Of a stretch of 20,204 nt of DNA, positions 4,215-19,364 are shown piece by piece. The stretch's first letter is position 1. Every line of letters begins with the position of its first letter. The stretch is taken from IMG/VR virus record IMGVR_UViG_3300025098_000367, positions 1 through 20,204 of that record, one strand, 5' to 3'. The notes under the pieces are model-generated. The model was given only the letters and a program-made list of their open reading frames with translations, ran no database searches and was not told the origin of the DNA. The translations under genes and the position numbers were made by a program. This DNA comes from a virus.

Positions 4215-5690
4215 ATGGCGCTAAATGACAGAGAATTATTAGCAAAGACGCTGCAAGCTGAAGCTGGCAATCAAGGCATTGGCGGCATGCTTGCTGTTGG
4301 CTCTGTCATAAGAAACCGCATGGCACAAGGTGGAAGTCTGAGTGACGTTATTCTTGCCCCTGCGCAGTTTTCTGCTTGGAACAAGGTAACTGGCGCGGTT
4401 GGCGGAGAGCAGGGGCAGGACATGGCTGCGCTAAAGCCAAGCGAAGATGCCTACTCTGCTGCAGATGCAATACTCTCTGGGAATGCCCCAGATTTAACTG
4501 GCGGCGCTACGCACTACTACAACCCGTCTATCTCAAACCCCGCTTGGGGCAAGGAGAAAGCTGGCGGTGATTGGACCAAGATTGGCGCGCATATTTTTGG
4601 CAAAGCTGGTGATTTCAAAACAGGAGCCGCAAAGATGAACGGTGAACAGACACAAAAACCTCAAGGCTTGCTGGGTGGCTTGCTTGGCGGGCAGGGCATA
4701 GGTGAGCGCTTAGGGCTAAGCCCAGAGTTTAGCGATAAACTCGCAATGGCTGTCATGGCTGGGACAGGTGATGCGCGATTGCAGCCTTTGATTGCGCAGC
4801 GTGCGGCAGGCATGAAAGAGCGTAGAGGTGAGGCTAAGGAACAACGCCAGCGTAATAAGAGTATTGAATTTTTGCAAAGCCGTGCTGATGCGGGTGATGC
4901 AACCGCGAAAGAAATTCTTGGGGCGGTTTCAACTGGCGTCCTGCCTGTAGGGATAGGCGTATCTACTTATTTGACGCAATCTCTGACTGCGCCGAAGGAC
5001 GAGAGAACGGCCTTGATGAAGGAATATGATCTGTCCAAAACAGACCCAGAATTTGCCAAGCTTTTGGGCTTGAGGAACGCGCCAGAAGCCCCCGCGGGGT
5101 TAAAAGCGCTAGATACTGAATTTGCCAAAACTCTTGGCGAAGGTGGCGGCGCGCAAAACGTAGCAGCGGCTATGCAGGATTTAGCGTCGGTTCAGACAGT
5201 CCTAAATAAACTTGAGGCTGGCGAGGAGCTAACTGGCCCATTTATTGGATCGCTACCTGAGAGCGTTAGAGCATTCATAGCCCCTGAAGGATTGCAGGCG
5301 CAGCAGCTTGTTGAAAGCGTTGTCCAAAAGAACCTTAGAGCAATTCTTGGTGGACAGTTTGCGCAAAAAGAAGGCGAGCAACTTGTTAGACGCGCATACA
5401 ATCCGTCACTTACCCCCGCGCAAAATGCGGCAAGGCTAAGAGCCTTAATACCGACACTGCAGGCTGCTGCTGAAAATAAACTGGCGATGACTGAGTACTT
5501 CCTTGATCCAAATAACAATTATTCGCTTAAAGGGTTTTCTGGACTTGTTGGTGTTCCAAGTGTTTCAGTGTTTATGAATGCTCTTGATGAAGGTGAAAGT
5601 AACTTATCTTCATCGGGGAAGGGCGCTCAACCCGCACCAGCGGCAAAACCAGTAGTAATAAATGGCTACACAATCGAAGAGATTGAATAA
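4215..5690 (+). CDS. Virion protein with N-terminal SleB-type cell-wall hydrolase domain, 491 aa
   Basis: Residues about 3-130 match the Hydrolase_2/SleB family: LLAKTLQAEAGNQGIGGM with the likely catalytic Glu16, then AVGSVIRNRM, the QFSAW motif (51-55), DLTGGATHYYNP (93-104) and IGAHIFGK (123-130). SleB enzymes are lytic transglycosylases. Fused to a long helical virion protein, it would open peptidoglycan locally during DNA entry, as T7 gp16 does. The remaining 360 residues are helical and unassigned. No clear Shine-Dalgarno is visible before ATG 4215, so translation may depend on the gene just upstream. The stop is in TAATG with the next gene. A second, unrelated wall enzyme (GH19) sits in the lysis cassette, which supports an entry role here. 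Confidence 0.75.
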   Translation: MALNDRELLAKTLQAEAGNQGIGGMLAVGSVIRNRMAQGGSLSDVILAPAQFSAWNKVTGAVGGEQGQDMAALKPSEDAYSAADAILSGNAPDLTGGATHYYNPSISNPAWGKEKAGGDWTKIGAHIFGKAGDFKTGAAKMNGEQTQKPQGLLGGLLGGQGIGERLGLSPEFSDKLAMAVMAGTGDARLQPLIAQRAAGMKERRGEAKEQRQRNKSIEFLQSRADAGDATAKEILGAVSTGVLPVGIGVSTYLTQSLTAPKDERTALMKEYDLSKTDPEFAKLLGLRNAPEAPAGLKALDTEFAKTLGEGGGAQNVAAAMQDLASVQTVLNKLEAGEELTGPFIGSLPESVRAFIAPEGLQAQQLVESVVQKNLRAILGGQFAQKEGEQLVRRAYNPSLTPAQNAARLRALIPTLQAAAENKLAMTEYFLDPNNNYSLKGFSGLVGVPSVSVFMNALDEGESNLSSSGKGAQPAPAAKPVVINGYTIEEIE

Positions 5691-14684: not shown

Positions 14685-14885
14685 TTAGCTAATGTCCATC
14701 GCATCTGATCCGCGCTGTATCATATCTGCATGCATTGTTTCACATGTGCGCAGCAACGCGATATAAGCACGAACAAGGGCTTCCATTTCGTGATCGCCGC
14801 GCATCCACCTGTCTTGCGGTAAGCCGCGCTCTGCACGCTCTATAATCTTTGCTGCGATGGCAAAGTAGTCTGGTATATCATTCAT
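14685..14885 (-). CDS. Small uncharacterised protein, 66 aa
   Basis: A soluble, helical protein (DYFAIAAKIIERAERGLPQD then EMEALVRAYIALLRTCETMH). It starts at ATG 14885, 8 bases inside the HNH gene, and is probably translationally coupled to it. It is followed by a 50-base gap before the next gene. Family not recognised. Helical host-takeover proteins of this size are common in phage early regions. Confidence 0.55.
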   Translation of the reverse strand: MNDIPDYFAIAAKIIERAERGLPQDRWMRGDHEMEALVRAYIALLRTCETMHADMIQRGSDAMDIS

Positions 14886-15231
14886 CCTTTTCTCCCTCTA
14901 ATTCCATCCAGTGATAAATCCTGTGACAATTACAGCACAGTGGGATGCATTTCTCAACTTCCTCCCACATTCGCTTAAACTGACCTTGCTGCAACAACTT
15001 ACTTACCTTTGGGTCGTTGTTCTGGTCGGGGTGGTGAAAATCTATTGCAGCAGGATGAGAAAAGCCACAAAAAAAGCAGGACAAGCCTGCTTTGTAGTCT
15101 CGAAACTTCTGTCTTTGCTCTTTCTTTCGCTTTCGCGTTCGTTCAAGCGTGCGTTCTCTGTTGCGCTGATACCAATCAGCACCGTACTTCTTGTTATACT
15201 CCCTGCGCTTCCCCTTGTCTTTGTACGGCAA
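14878..15231 (-). CDS. HNH-type nuclease-like protein, 117 aa (TTG start)
   Basis: The N-terminus (MPYKDKGKRREYNKKYGADW, then a highly basic helix) is characteristic of a family of small phage HNH proteins. The nuclease core follows: CFFC (52-55), IDFHHPDQNN (63-72), and CCNCHRIYH (99-107) with its zinc cysteines and HNH-type histidines. It could nick or cut DNA. Candidate roles are packaging, recombination or homing. An in-frame stop lies 6 bases upstream and there is no ATG before residue 88, so TTG 15231 is the likely start, consistent with the family's usual N-terminus. Only a weak AGAAG ribosome site is visible. Confidence 0.75.
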   Translation of the reverse strand: MPYKDKGKRREYNKKYGADWYQRNRERTLERTRKRKKEQRQKFRDYKAGLSCFFCGFSHPAAIDFHHPDQNNDPKVSKLLQQGQFKRMWEEVEKCIPLCCNCHRIYHWMELEGEKDE

Positions 15232-15615: not shown

Positions 15616-16128
15616 TTACTTTTTAATTGCGTATTTTATTGCGGCGGCTGCGATTAAGCTAATCACTAGCTTTCCGAATATTTGACCCTCGACATACGCG
15701 AGAGAACCAAAGGCTATATATAGGAAAACTATGCTGTCCATGACTGCCCCAGCTAGGCCAGATGCAGCAACAGCCAAAGCCCTGCCATATTTGCGCACAT
15801 ATGTGTAAGCGCCAAAGTCCACCAATTCTGACGCGCCAAATGCCAAGATGCTTGCAAGCGCAATAAATGGATCGGCAAGCAGGTATGACAAGATTGCGCC
15901 CACTATTATACCACCCAACGCCCATTTCACACCTAGATGCTCTTGGACTTGATCGCGCAAAACCAAAGCCGCGCCTACCATCAAAACACCACTAGGCGCT
16001 GTCATGCCAAATCCAACTGGGATCATGCACGGCCCATCTGTTATGCAGAACGTGCCAACATTACCAATCATCCAGTTTGCTGCGGGTATTGTTGCTATAT
16101 ACCCTGCTAAATATCCCCACTTTTTCAT
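15616..16128 (-). CDS. yhhQ: VUT/YhhQ-family queuosine-precursor transporter, 170 aa
   Basis: This is a polytopic membrane protein with about five or six spans. It carries the VUT-family core: SELVDFGAYTYVRKYGRALA (100-119), with the acidic Glu101 and Asp104 and Arg112, followed by SGLAGAVMDSIVFL (123-136) with Asp131, and the end motif GQIFGKLVISLIAA. YhhQ proteins import preQ0/preQ1, precursors of 7-deazaguanine bases. At 170 residues it is shorter than the about 220 residues of bacterial members, with the loss at the N-terminus. GAGG precedes the ATG by 8 bases. It lies 14 bases downstream of the DpdA/TGT-like gene, which suggests the pair supplies and inserts a modified base. Substrate is inferred from the family. 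Confidence 0.8.
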   Translation of the reverse strand: MKKWGYLAGYIATIPAANWMIGNVGTFCITDGPCMIPVGFGMTAPSGVLMVGAALVLRDQVQEHLGVKWALGGIIVGAILSYLLADPFIALASILAFGASELVDFGAYTYVRKYGRALAVAASGLAGAVMDSIVFLYIAFGSLAYVEGQIFGKLVISLIAAAAIKYAIKK

Positions 16129-16142
16129 GTCAATATCCTCTC

Positions 16143-16745
16143 TTATATCATGTTGAGCATGGGTTGCTCGTTAAGCCAGCGAAGCCACTTATCTAGCTTT
16201 GCTCTATTCTCGTCTGGCGCAAATGCAAGCATAGTTCCGTCCACGCTGTCACACCCTATTGCAGCCGCAAGACGCATTCTTTGGTAGCTATTCACTCTAC
16301 CCATATGCACCCACTTATCTCGGCGTTTGGCTTCTGCCACAAGATCAGCGGCAGCTTGGCTCAGTTTCCACTCTGTGCTGCCACCAATAAATATTGCATC
16401 TAACTTTGACCACTCAACTGTGTTGGGCAGCTCACCATCTTGGCAGACATAGGCAGCCTTAAAGCCTAACTTTTGGATGCGTGGCAGCATTGGGTAGGCT
16501 CGATCTTTTGTTGCTGCTGCGTCACCAACCACATCAGGTGCTGCGGCAAACAAGCAAGCGTCACGATCTAACTTATCAAGCCAAGCAAGAAAGCCATCGT
16601 TGCTGTACTTGCCTGCCTGAACAAAACATCCATTGTCAGCGGCGAACAAGCTGTGACCATGAATTGACTGCTTGCCAGCGTTGAAACTAAGCATAACACC
16701 AAGCTGGTCGGTGCATTCTACTTTTTTGCCGCTTAGATAGATCAT
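16143..16745 (-). CDS. dpdA: DpdA/TGT-like 7-deazaguanine transglycosylase, 200 aa
   Basis: The protein keeps the TGT-type barrel motifs in order: FAADNG (34-39, substrate-binding Asp37), APDVVGD (69-75), VCQDG (100-104, equivalent to the Gln/Gly loop of TGT), FIGGSTEWK (119-127, equivalent to GGLAVGE), and HMGRVNSYQRM (147-157) followed by GCDSVDGT (164-171), where Asp169 or Asp166 would be the nucleophile. TGT exchanges guanine for a 7-deazaguanine in tRNA; DpdA enzymes do so in DNA. The C-terminal Cys/His zinc site of tRNA-type TGT is absent and the protein ends soon after the catalytic motif, both favouring a DpdA-like DNA enzyme. The ATG overlaps the HTH gene stop by 4 bases (ATGA). Family confident, DNA substrate inferred. 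Confidence 0.78.
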   Translation of the reverse strand: MIYLSGKKVECTDQLGVMLSFNAGKQSIHGHSLFAADNGCFVQAGKYSNDGFLAWLDKLDRDACLFAAAPDVVGDAAATKDRAYPMLPRIQKLGFKAAYVCQDGELPNTVEWSKLDAIFIGGSTEWKLSQAAADLVAEAKRRDKWVHMGRVNSYQRMRLAAAIGCDSVDGTMLAFAPDENRAKLDKWLRWLNEQPMLNMI

Positions 16746-17008
16746 TTCATAAAATACTTAGCTTTCCAGTAACGCACGCTGCTTTCAGATATGCCTAGCT
16801 CATTGGCGATATCTACCGTGCGGAAACCTTCCTCTACCAGTTCCTTAATTAACGCCAAGCGCTCTGGGTTATATGTTCCATGCGGTCTTCCCTTCTGCGT
16901 TGGCTTCGGCTGTTCGCGTTTTTGTTGTTGCAGTCCTGTACCCCATTTCTTGCGGTACGCAGCATTTTCCTGCTTGGCTAGTGCGGCCCATGCTGTTGCT
17001 ATTGTCAT
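16742..17008 (-). CDS. Small HTH DNA-binding protein, 88 aa
   Basis: A helix-turn-helix fills about residues 61-83 (GFRTVDIANELGISESSVRY). It is preceded by a basic linker with a KGRPHG motif (39-44), similar to an AT-hook, and by an N-terminal helix. This resembles resolvase-type HTH domains used by transcription factors and small terminase-like proteins. It is coupled by ATGA overlaps to the genes on both sides, so it is made with the DpdA-like protein. It may be the operon's regulator or may help deliver the modifying enzyme to DNA. A terminase small subunit is possible but no large subunit is in the window. Confidence 0.7.
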   Translation of the reverse strand: MTIATAWAALAKQENAAYRKKWGTGLQQQKREQPKPTQKGRPHGTYNPERLALIKELVEEGFRTVDIANELGISESSVRYWKAKYFMK

Positions 17009-17692: not shown

Positions 17693-17884
17693 ATGAATAG
17701 CGACACAAAGCCATGCATGCTGCACCTAAGTAAGACTGCAGACGAAGTAATAGAGCGACTGCGATTTGATGATGTGTACAAACCACAGGGCCGCAGAAAG
17801 CACAGCCGCAGCGACTTTGTAGAAGACGCAATCCTGTTTTACGCGAAACACTTGGAAGCGCAGCTAGATGGTCAACGGGCGTAA
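17693..17884 (+). CDS. Ribbon-helix-helix-like small DNA-binding protein, 63 aa
   Basis: The layout fits an Arc/MetJ-type ribbon-helix-helix: a short strand (KPCMLHLSK), a helix (TADEVIERLRFDDVY), a basic loop (KPQGRRKHSRSD), and a second helix (DFVEDAILFYAKHLEAQLDG). RHH proteins are dimers that read DNA with the strand pair, often as autorepressors. It is the first gene right of the divergent control region, with GAGG six bases before the ATG. Autoregulation of the 17629-17671 inverted repeat is inferred, not shown. It overlaps the resolvase-like gene by 17 bases. Confidence 0.6.
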   Translation: MNSDTKPCMLHLSKTADEVIERLRFDDVYKPQGRRKHSRSDFVEDAILFYAKHLEAQLDGQRA

Positions 17885-18266
17885 TAAGGGCGCATCGTTT
17901 GAGCGCAGCATAGCAAACATGCTATTTGCTGATCTGGGGCTAAACGCAAAGCGCGATATTGAGCAGTACCGTGCAGCGGATCATGGGGACATCGTAACAG
18001 ACGATGAGAGCTGGCCCTATGTCATCGAATGCAAACGCTATGGGGGCAAACACTTCACGTTTCGCCCAGAGTGGTGGGTGCAAGTCGAGAAAGCTGCCAA
18101 TGCTGCAGGAAAAGAACCTGTGCTTGTCTATAAGTATGACCGCCAGCCAATCACGGTTGTCATGCGCCTAGAATACTTAATGGGTGACGGAGTACATCAC
18201 GAAGAAAAAGTACGCATGGATTGGGATGCGTTTATCTACATCGCAAGGGAGAATTGGGATGGTTAA
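17868..18266 (+). CDS. Hjc-like PD-(D/E)XK resolvase/endonuclease, 132 aa
   Basis: The N-terminus NKGASFERSIANML matches the archaeal Hjc-type resolvase opening with Glu12. The nuclease core is HGDIVTDDESWPYVIECKRY, with Asp41 and the E-x-K pair Glu54/Lys56, followed by Gln72 in the WVQVEKAA helix. It would cut branched DNA during recombination or before packaging. Its start lies inside the end of the RHH-like gene, and its end overlaps the next gene by 8 bases, so all are co-translated. Broad family confident; Holliday-junction specificity inferred. Confidence 0.75.
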   Translation: MVNGRNKGASFERSIANMLFADLGLNAKRDIEQYRAADHGDIVTDDESWPYVIECKRYGGKHFTFRPEWWVQVEKAANAAGKEPVLVYKYDRQPITVVMRLEYLMGDGVHHEEKVRMDWDAFIYIARENWDG

Positions 18267-18543
18267 ATTTGAGCTTATAGAGCCAGAGAATAAAAATCAT
18301 ATTTGGTCACTACAGCGTGTCGTGCCAACTGACATAGGAACATGGACCGCGAGTGAGGAGCCTTTTCTTATCTTCCATCTAAACAGTGTCGAGAGTGCAG
18401 GTTCCACGGAAGCGCACCGCCTTGGCTATGAGGTTTTTCAAATAAACTTCAAAAGCGGCAAAACTATTTGGGTAGAGGTTCCAAAAGAAAAGAAAAAAAC
18501 GCTTCTGGAAGAACTTATTTGGTGCATAGGGAAAACAAAATGA
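18259..18543 (+). CDS. Uncharacterised early protein, 94 aa
   Basis: ATG 18259 (MVKFELIEPENK) is preferred over an in-frame ATG at 18184 deep inside the resolvase-like gene, because it gives the usual short overlap and has GGGA just upstream. The product is beta-rich with aromatic residues (HRLGYEVFQINFKSGKTIWV) and ends in a charged helix. No recognised family. Its stop overlaps the exonuclease start by 4 bases (ATGA), suggesting it works with or is co-regulated with the recombination genes. Confidence 0.6.
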   Translation: MVKFELIEPENKNHIWSLQRVVPTDIGTWTASEEPFLIFHLNSVESAGSTEAHRLGYEVFQINFKSGKTIWVEVPKEKKKTLLEELIWCIGKTK

Positions 18544-19364
18544 CACAAATTGAATACAACCTGCCAGACTATGAGTATCACGATAAAGCGATACATCCGC
18601 ATATCTCAAGCAGTGACGTAAAGACCGTCCTAAGCAAATCCTTGCTACACTGGGCAGGTCAAGAGCGTAAAGAGAGTATTGCCTTTGACATAGGCAAAGC
18701 TGTGCATGCGTTAATCCTAGAGCCTGAAAAGGATTTAGTTGTGCGCGGTCCAGAGGATAGGCGCGGCAGCAAATGGAAGGATGCCAAAGCAAAGGCTGAA
18801 AAAGCTGGCAAAGTGTTGCTGACGGAAAAAGACTACGACACTTGCATGGCTATGGCGACAAACGCATTCATGCACTGCGACTTCCTCAAGGAAACTGTGT
18901 ACTCTGATGCATTCGTCGCAGAGGCCAGCATCTTCACAACCTGCAGCAAAACTGGTGTGGACATAAAGGTACGCCCAGATGGGCTAATCATGCCGCAAAA
19001 GAAAACGGATGAGCCTTACATAATTGACATCAAAACCACGCAGGACGCATCGCCAGAGGCATTTCATAAAGAAATTCGGCGGTATAACTATGATGTGCAG
19101 ATTGCTTTCTACCTGCACACTATGTGGGAAGCGGGTTTGCCCTGCAAAACCATGTATCTCATTGCAGTTGAGAAAAATGCACCATATGTCACGACTGTGC
19201 ATGAACTAAGTGAACTACACCTAGCGCACGCACACAAACGCATGCTTGCCACATTGGAAAAGATCGGCAATGCTATGCGAACAGGGGAATTTACGACAGA
19301 TTGGCCTGACGTAAATCAAGTCTTTCTTCCTGCATGGATGGAAGATGGAATAGAAGCATTTTGA
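18540..19364 (+). CDS. RecE/DUF3799-like exonuclease (PD-(D/E)XK), 274 aa
   Basis: The start at ATG 18540 gives an ATGA overlap with the preceding gene; an upstream in-frame ATG at 18468 lies within that gene and is less likely. Motifs fit the RecE-type/DUF3799 exonuclease family: IGKAVHALILEPE (51-63, with the G-x-x-x-H signature), Glu129, KVRPDG with Asp147, IIDIKTT with Asp163 and Lys165, and YDVQIAFY (184-191, with Gln187 and Tyr191). It would digest one strand of duplex DNA for recombination, with the single-strand binding protein encoded next. No annealase is visible in the window. Confidence 0.82.
   Translation: MTQIEYNLPDYEYHDKAIHPHISSSDVKTVLSKSLLHWAGQERKESIAFDIGKAVHALILEPEKDLVVRGPEDRRGSKWKDAKAKAEKAGKVLLTEKDYDTCMAMATNAFMHCDFLKETVYSDAFVAEASIFTTCSKTGVDIKVRPDGLIMPQKKTDEPYIIDIKTTQDASPEAFHKEIRRYNYDVQIAFYLHTMWEAGLPCKTMYLIAVEKNAPYVTTVHELSELHLAHAHKRMLATLEKIGNAMRTGEFTTDWPDVNQVFLPAWMEDGIEAF

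Follow-up and report, generated by a model that had tools for sequence, protein, structure and literature searches.

The described systems closest to the locus studied here are those of the phages CAjan (Seuratvirus) and 9g, whose DpdA, a TGT-type barrel of about 300 aa (phrog_887), is encoded together with preQ0/G+ synthesis genes. The CAjan DpdA inserts the base into DNA, and inactivation of CAjan dpdA abolished both the modification and the resistance (PMC6884629). PF02592 proteins, the family of E. coli YhhQ/QPTR (COG1738), are found in the 7-deazaguanine loci of phages EC151, Vid5, and the Seuratviruses, where these preQ0 transporters sit in a full synthesis cluster (PMC8310023, PMC6266253), and YhhQ is also present in about 9% of the bacterial dpd islands (PMC11888242). 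Phage YhhQ and DpdA are known already; for YhhQ, the reports either place it in complete synthesis clusters or note no pattern. Hutinet et al. 2019 found YhhQ not to be correlated with any phage group, and left open the base source of DpdA phages without synthesis genes, for which uptake was suggested as one option. Mycobacterium phage Orion, with DpdA alone, showed no modification (PMC6884629), as expected of a phage without a base supply.

We analyzed a 20,204-nucleotide stretch of viral DNA (the window), in which a small DpdA/TGT-like base-exchange enzyme (16143-16745, minus strand; ATG start, 200 aa) and a YhhQ/QPTR-like transporter (15616-16128, minus strand; ATG start, 170 aa) are encoded. 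As the original prediction had claimed, with the same coordinates, the two genes are adjacent on one strand and separated by a 14-nt gap (16129-16142). The enzyme start overlaps by 4 nt with a gene for an 88-aa protein with helix-turn-helix (HTH) matches in Pfam (16742-17008, minus strand), and the HTH, enzyme, and transporter genes thus probably form a three-gene transcription unit, with the HTH gene first. Promoter predictions from a promoter/terminator scan were no better than those from shuffled sequences, and Rfam searches of the window and of 13 related loci were negative for preQ1 riboswitches. The window is contained in a record of 36,542 bp (G001; window base 74 corresponds to G001 base 5076), the genome of a tailed phage, whose genes include those for the portal, the capsid, a primase-helicase, and the terminase. 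Since its portal protein, compared with those of annotated phages, is closest to that of an Octadecabacter virus (48%), an alphaproteobacterium is a reasonable guess for the host. Downstream of the pair, 14878-15231 (minus strand) encodes a small protein with paired Cys/His motifs (CFFCGF, DFHHPD, CCNCH), which resembles an HNH-type endonuclease and has no match in Pfam. On the plus strand, two PD-(D/E)XK nuclease-like genes of the PDDEXK_15 and DUF3799 families (17868-18266 and 18540-19364) are followed by a gene for an Enc34-type ssDNA-binding protein.

The enzyme belongs to phrog_15826 in PHROGs (E 5.5e-59), where the family is annotated as "unknown function". Searches of Pfam and NCBIfam returned nothing convincing, PF01702 being unmatched even at E 1, a PDB sequence search found no relatives of the enzyme or the transporter, and PADLOC matched neither protein. 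An AlphaFold2 model of the enzyme, built on a 78-sequence alignment, is a TIM barrel with a mean pLDDT of 92.6. When the model was compared with solved structures by Foldseek, archaeosine TGT (1j2b) ranked second and bacterial DpdA (7ui4) third, with many Zymomonas TGTs also among the top matches, and VIA-align placed TGT first (Z 14.8, 191-192 residues, 2.9-3.0 Å). The TGT barrel that had been proposed from the sequence is therefore present in the model; since ribulose-phosphate 3-epimerase ties with TGT in VIA-align (Z 14.7), however, TGT specificity is not proven by the fold alone. Viral models near the top of the matches include "queuine tRNA-ribosyltransferases" of mycobacteriophages and of Sonali. 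In BFVD, A0A0F7L9Z1 from an uncultured marine virus (499 aa) combines an enzyme-like barrel (TM 0.76, 27% identity) with some 300 additional residues and may be a fusion.

We then compared sequence profiles. The enzyme family matched short phrog_887 proteins of about 226 aa, labeled "queuine tRNA-ribosyltransferase" (probability 91%, E 1.1e-6, 147 columns), and these in turn matched the Seuratvirus/Sonali-type DpdA (probability 98%, E 3.4e-14), while the direct match of the enzyme family to canonical DpdA (E 1.3e-4) covered the N-terminal half only. In contrast, hhalign detected no profile similarity between the enzyme family and seven host tRNA-TGTs (E 0.72), so that the assignment of the enzyme as a tRNA-TGT was dropped. 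The match to DpdA is thus strong only by way of phrog_887, and the sequence profiles point towards phage DpdA rather than TGT. SEA-PHAGES annotators already label some members of the enzyme family "DpdA-like". Phage phiLM21 p025 did not match the enzyme family in a single-sequence comparison, and is assigned by PHROGs to a different TGT-like family.

The conserved residues were compared as well. Asp37, Pro70-Asp71, Gln102, Gly121-122, His147, and Asp169 are invariant in all 78 enzyme relatives, in an order that appears to match D102, D156, Q203, G230, and D280 of Zymomonas TGT. The profile alignment with phrog_887 pairs the motifs ADNGCF with LDNGAFS, APDVV with IPDVI, WVHM with WVHM, and SVDGT with SVDST, so that the Asp and His motif positions are shared with phage DpdA. 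A candidate nucleophile had been predicted in GCDSVDGT; the motif is indeed present, and since its second Asp, Asp169 (codon 16239-16241, minus strand), is invariant and matches the Asp of the phrog_887-type SVDST, whereas its first, Asp166, occurs in only 63 of the 78 relatives, the putative nucleophile is most likely Asp169. Asp37, in AADNGCF (codon 16635-16637, minus strand), aligns with LDNGAFS/LDSGAFS of DpdA proteins, and is the putative counterpart of the general-base Asp in the DSGGF motif of TGT. Asp37 and Asp169 would thus form a conserved catalytic Asp pair as in DpdA. The CxCxxC motif of the TGT zinc site, whose absence had also been noticed at the outset, is found in none of the 78 relatives. 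Taken together, the window enzyme shares with phage DpdA the barrel, the motif positions, an indirect profile link via the short phrog_887 proteins, and the expected role in 7-deazaguanine insertion, but is shorter and constitutes a separate family.

The transporter passes the Pfam Vut_1 model (PF02592; 36.5 bits against a cut-off of 27.2, E 7.6e-9) and is assigned to phrog_4899 (E 6.7e-35). Its closest NCBI model is the queuosine precursor transporter TIGR00697, on which it scores below the equivalog cut-off (34.2 against 50.95 bits, E 2.1e-8). These matches place the protein in the VUT/queuosine-precursor transporter superfamily, as had been proposed, and it is a divergent PF02592 member rather than the TIGR00697 equivalog; with the score under that cut-off, its substrate is not fixed. 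The AlphaFold2 model (pLDDT 93.6) contains six long helices, as in E. coli YhhQ, although the window protein is shorter, and shows weak structural matches to the S components of ECF vitamin transporters. The substrates of PF02592 proteins vary, from preQ0/preQ1 in E. coli to queuine in Chlamydia (PMC11130926), and the exact base is thus not predictable from the transporter sequence. An apparent 601-aa transporter fusion (L083) was rejected, since it appears to be an extended reading frame in GC-rich DNA.

The genetic linkage of the two proteins was examined next. The transporter adjoins the enzyme on the same strand in 60 of 86 distinct enzyme relatives, while transporter relatives are recognizable in only 81 of 50,697 public phage records, which confirms that the adjacency is far beyond chance. 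Within the pairs, the transporter lies either upstream or downstream, and the genes mostly overlap or are within tens of bases of each other. The remaining 26 relatives have no adjacent transporter, and Que genes were likewise missing from most of the ones tested. The short phrog_887 proteins have an adjacent transporter at 48 of 67 distinct loci, and phrog_1279 proteins at 3 of 35. Furthermore, the cultured-phage transporters closest to that of the window, from RHph_N3_2, RHph_X2_30, Pam5, and phiLM21, are located beside or near TGT-like proteins of phrog_887 or phrog_1279. In a tree of 124 YhhQ transporters (a quick tree, with some weak branches), at least four changes of the partner family fall on branches with good support, and parsimony gives 11. 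That one transporter family has been joined repeatedly to two TGT-like families is difficult to account for unless the proteins function together.

Several neighborhoods were set aside or noted separately. The YhhQ homologue of Aminobacter phage Erebus was rejected as a further case, because its neighbor is an SSB-like protein and not an enzyme of the DpdA/TGT-like kind. Rhodococcus phage ReqiPine5 (L041:5209-6126, L110) and the locus L116 have a PAPS-reductase-like PP-loop ATPase gene next to the enzyme-transporter pair. A divergent phrog_15826 branch from Caballeronia, Paraburkholderia, and Pseudomonas contigs (L182-L215), whose members are mostly 270-296 aa long and share 31-38% identity, has DndC/PAPS-reductase-like ATPase and SbcC/SbcD-like genes nearby (PADLOC DndC E 1e-44, L191); YhhQ was not detected there, and the branch represents another genetic setting for phrog_15826.

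We also investigated how the base might be supplied. No queC, queD, or queE had been seen in the window, and none was found in the whole 36.5-kb record either, so that the locus differs from those of CAjan and 9g in pairing the enzyme with a transporter instead of synthesis genes, and from those of EC151, Vid5, and the Seuratviruses in having its PF02592 gene outside any synthesis cluster. Whole-record searches of the relatives in records of at least 15 kb, many of them fragments, detected QueC or QueD in 0 of 33 transporter-positive and 5 of 13 transporter-negative records (Fisher p 0.0009, ignoring relatedness and leaving out Escherichia phage SHIN8), and transport and synthesis thus look like alternative sources of the base. 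QueE was found in six records, all without the transporter. In L091, L105, L115, L120, L121, and L197, the last being an Acidobacteria contig, a QueE or QueC gene adjoins that of the enzyme or is at most a few kb away. An apparent 455-aa QueC-enzyme fusion in L121 was discarded, as the overlapping genes sit in different frames. The YhhQ-positive L018 gave a weak QueC match (23 bits), and SHIN8 (L046) encodes YhhQ, QueC, a full DpdA, and a 109-aa fragment of the small enzyme. Whether made or imported, the base of the enzyme points to one chemical class. Arthrobacter phage Sonali (L042) likewise carries a full-length DpdA plus the small enzyme, and from these two phages, the full-length and small proteins may have different jobs.

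From these data, we consider it probable that the enzyme and the transporter constitute a salvage and insertion module for 7-deazaguanines in phage DNA, operating without synthesis genes. The YhhQ-like protein, as judged from its family, would reside in the host inner membrane and bring in more of a free 7-deazaguanine base (preQ0, preQ1, or a related one) from the surroundings. The 200-aa enzyme, a stripped-down DpdA-type TGT barrel, would then exchange guanine in the phage DNA for this base through a covalent intermediate on Asp169. The modified guanine would shield the genome against the restriction enzymes of the host as in CAjan and 9g, a role suggested by the loss of both modification and resistance on inactivation of CAjan dpdA. 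Relatives would obtain the base either through the transporter or from QueC/D/E, the window phage having a record free of synthesis genes. We infer that DNA rather than RNA is the substrate, and likewise the identity of the base and the protection from host nucleases or restriction. The import-and-insert reading of the original prediction holds up well: the fold, the invariant Asp, and the transporter family all agree with it, so that each of its refuting conditions that could be computed came out in its favor, and the repeated pairing, the re-pairing, and the replacement of the transporter by QueC/D/E in some relatives provide further support. DpdA-type insertion would also be shared with the bacterial dpd islands of the S. 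Montevideo type, consistent with the rank of 7ui4 among the structural matches; unlike in those islands, DpdB, DpdC, or restriction genes were not seen beside the pair, which more likely serves the phage against restriction than for self/non-self marking.

Since the enzyme has the same fold as tRNA-TGT, and bacterial YhhQ-family transporters feed tRNA queuosine (PMC5372724), we also considered whether the pair acts on RNA, with imported preQ0, preQ1, or queuine placed into tRNA by the barrel itself or by a host TGT, thereby tuning translation. Alphaproteobacterial hosts, e.g. Rhizobium and Novosphingobium, do possess TGT. However, the enzyme lacks the zinc motif throughout its relatives and any match to PF01702, its chain of sequence similarity leads to phage DpdA instead of TGT, and the hosts often offer no such pathway: among 15 bacterial genomes in which a prophage-like region contains the pair, 12 lack a TGT that scores above the Pfam cut-off, and TGT is absent from most of the pair-bearing actinomycete hosts that were sampled. 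The pair is also found in a group of phages that infect M. smegmatis, and queuosine genes are all absent from mycobacteria (PMC6884629). In hosts without TGT or queuosine genes, import alone would not help translation, and this RNA-directed role is therefore rather unlikely in our judgment. For mycobacterial-type hosts, in which neither a host supply of the base nor its use in tRNA is expected, the data favor uptake from the environment to serve the phage itself.

The tie with ribulose-phosphate epimerase on fold, the naming of PF02592 as "putative vitamin uptake transporter", and the weak resemblance of the transporter to ECF vitamin S components would instead fit a barrel that removes or hydrolyzes bases (a nucleoside hydrolase or deazapurine-recycling enzyme), or a metabolic TIM barrel such as an epimerase, accompanied by a carrier of another purine or a vitamin. 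We regard this as quite improbable, because the partners of the enzyme other than YhhQ include QueC, QueE, and QueD, the other partners of the transporter are TGT-like proteins, and the enzyme motifs align with those of DpdA. Phage genomes being mosaic, and 26 of the 86 enzyme relatives having no transporter neighbor, the adjacency might even reflect historical hitch-hiking of unrelated small auxiliary genes in one variable slot. Yet the pair occurs in both gene orders, with overlapping genes and in very diverse backgrounds, the transporter has re-paired with other TGT-like families, and the next commonest neighbor families of the enzyme, at 11 and 9 loci (setting aside ORFs that overlap the enzyme), come nowhere near the frequency of the transporter. 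Pairing at a mere auxiliary-gene frequency is thus very unlikely, and we give hardly any credence to hitch-hiking as the explanation.

The import and insertion of a 7-deazaguanine into phage DNA therefore remains our preferred reading, and the synthesis-free enzyme-transporter pair, as a widespread module, adds a further variant to the known systems. In the literature searched, with partial coverage, neither this pair as a recurrent module nor its alternation with synthesis genes was found, and an earlier description may exist. Most relatives of a minimal DpdA-like family to which PHROGs assigns no function are linked to YhhQ, and some of the others to QueC/D/E; this linkage indicates the likely substrate of the family and offers a functional label for phrog_15826 and phrog_4899. 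The source of the base can be examined directly in cultured phages that carry the pair, among them Mycobacterium phage StevieRay and Rhodococcus phage ReqiPine5, and the 200-aa enzyme could provide a simple system in which to study DNA base exchange. It is an evenly balanced proposition that synthesis-free DNA hypermodification is a common phage strategy across very different hosts, including actinomycetes and mycobacteria unable to make or use queuosine, each phage bringing its own importer and a minimal insertase and relying for genome protection on a micronutrient scavenged from the environment, with importer and synthesis genes as interchangeable supplies for the same minimal DpdA. If the import-and-insert reading is true, the restriction resistance of a phage can hinge on a nutrient available around it.
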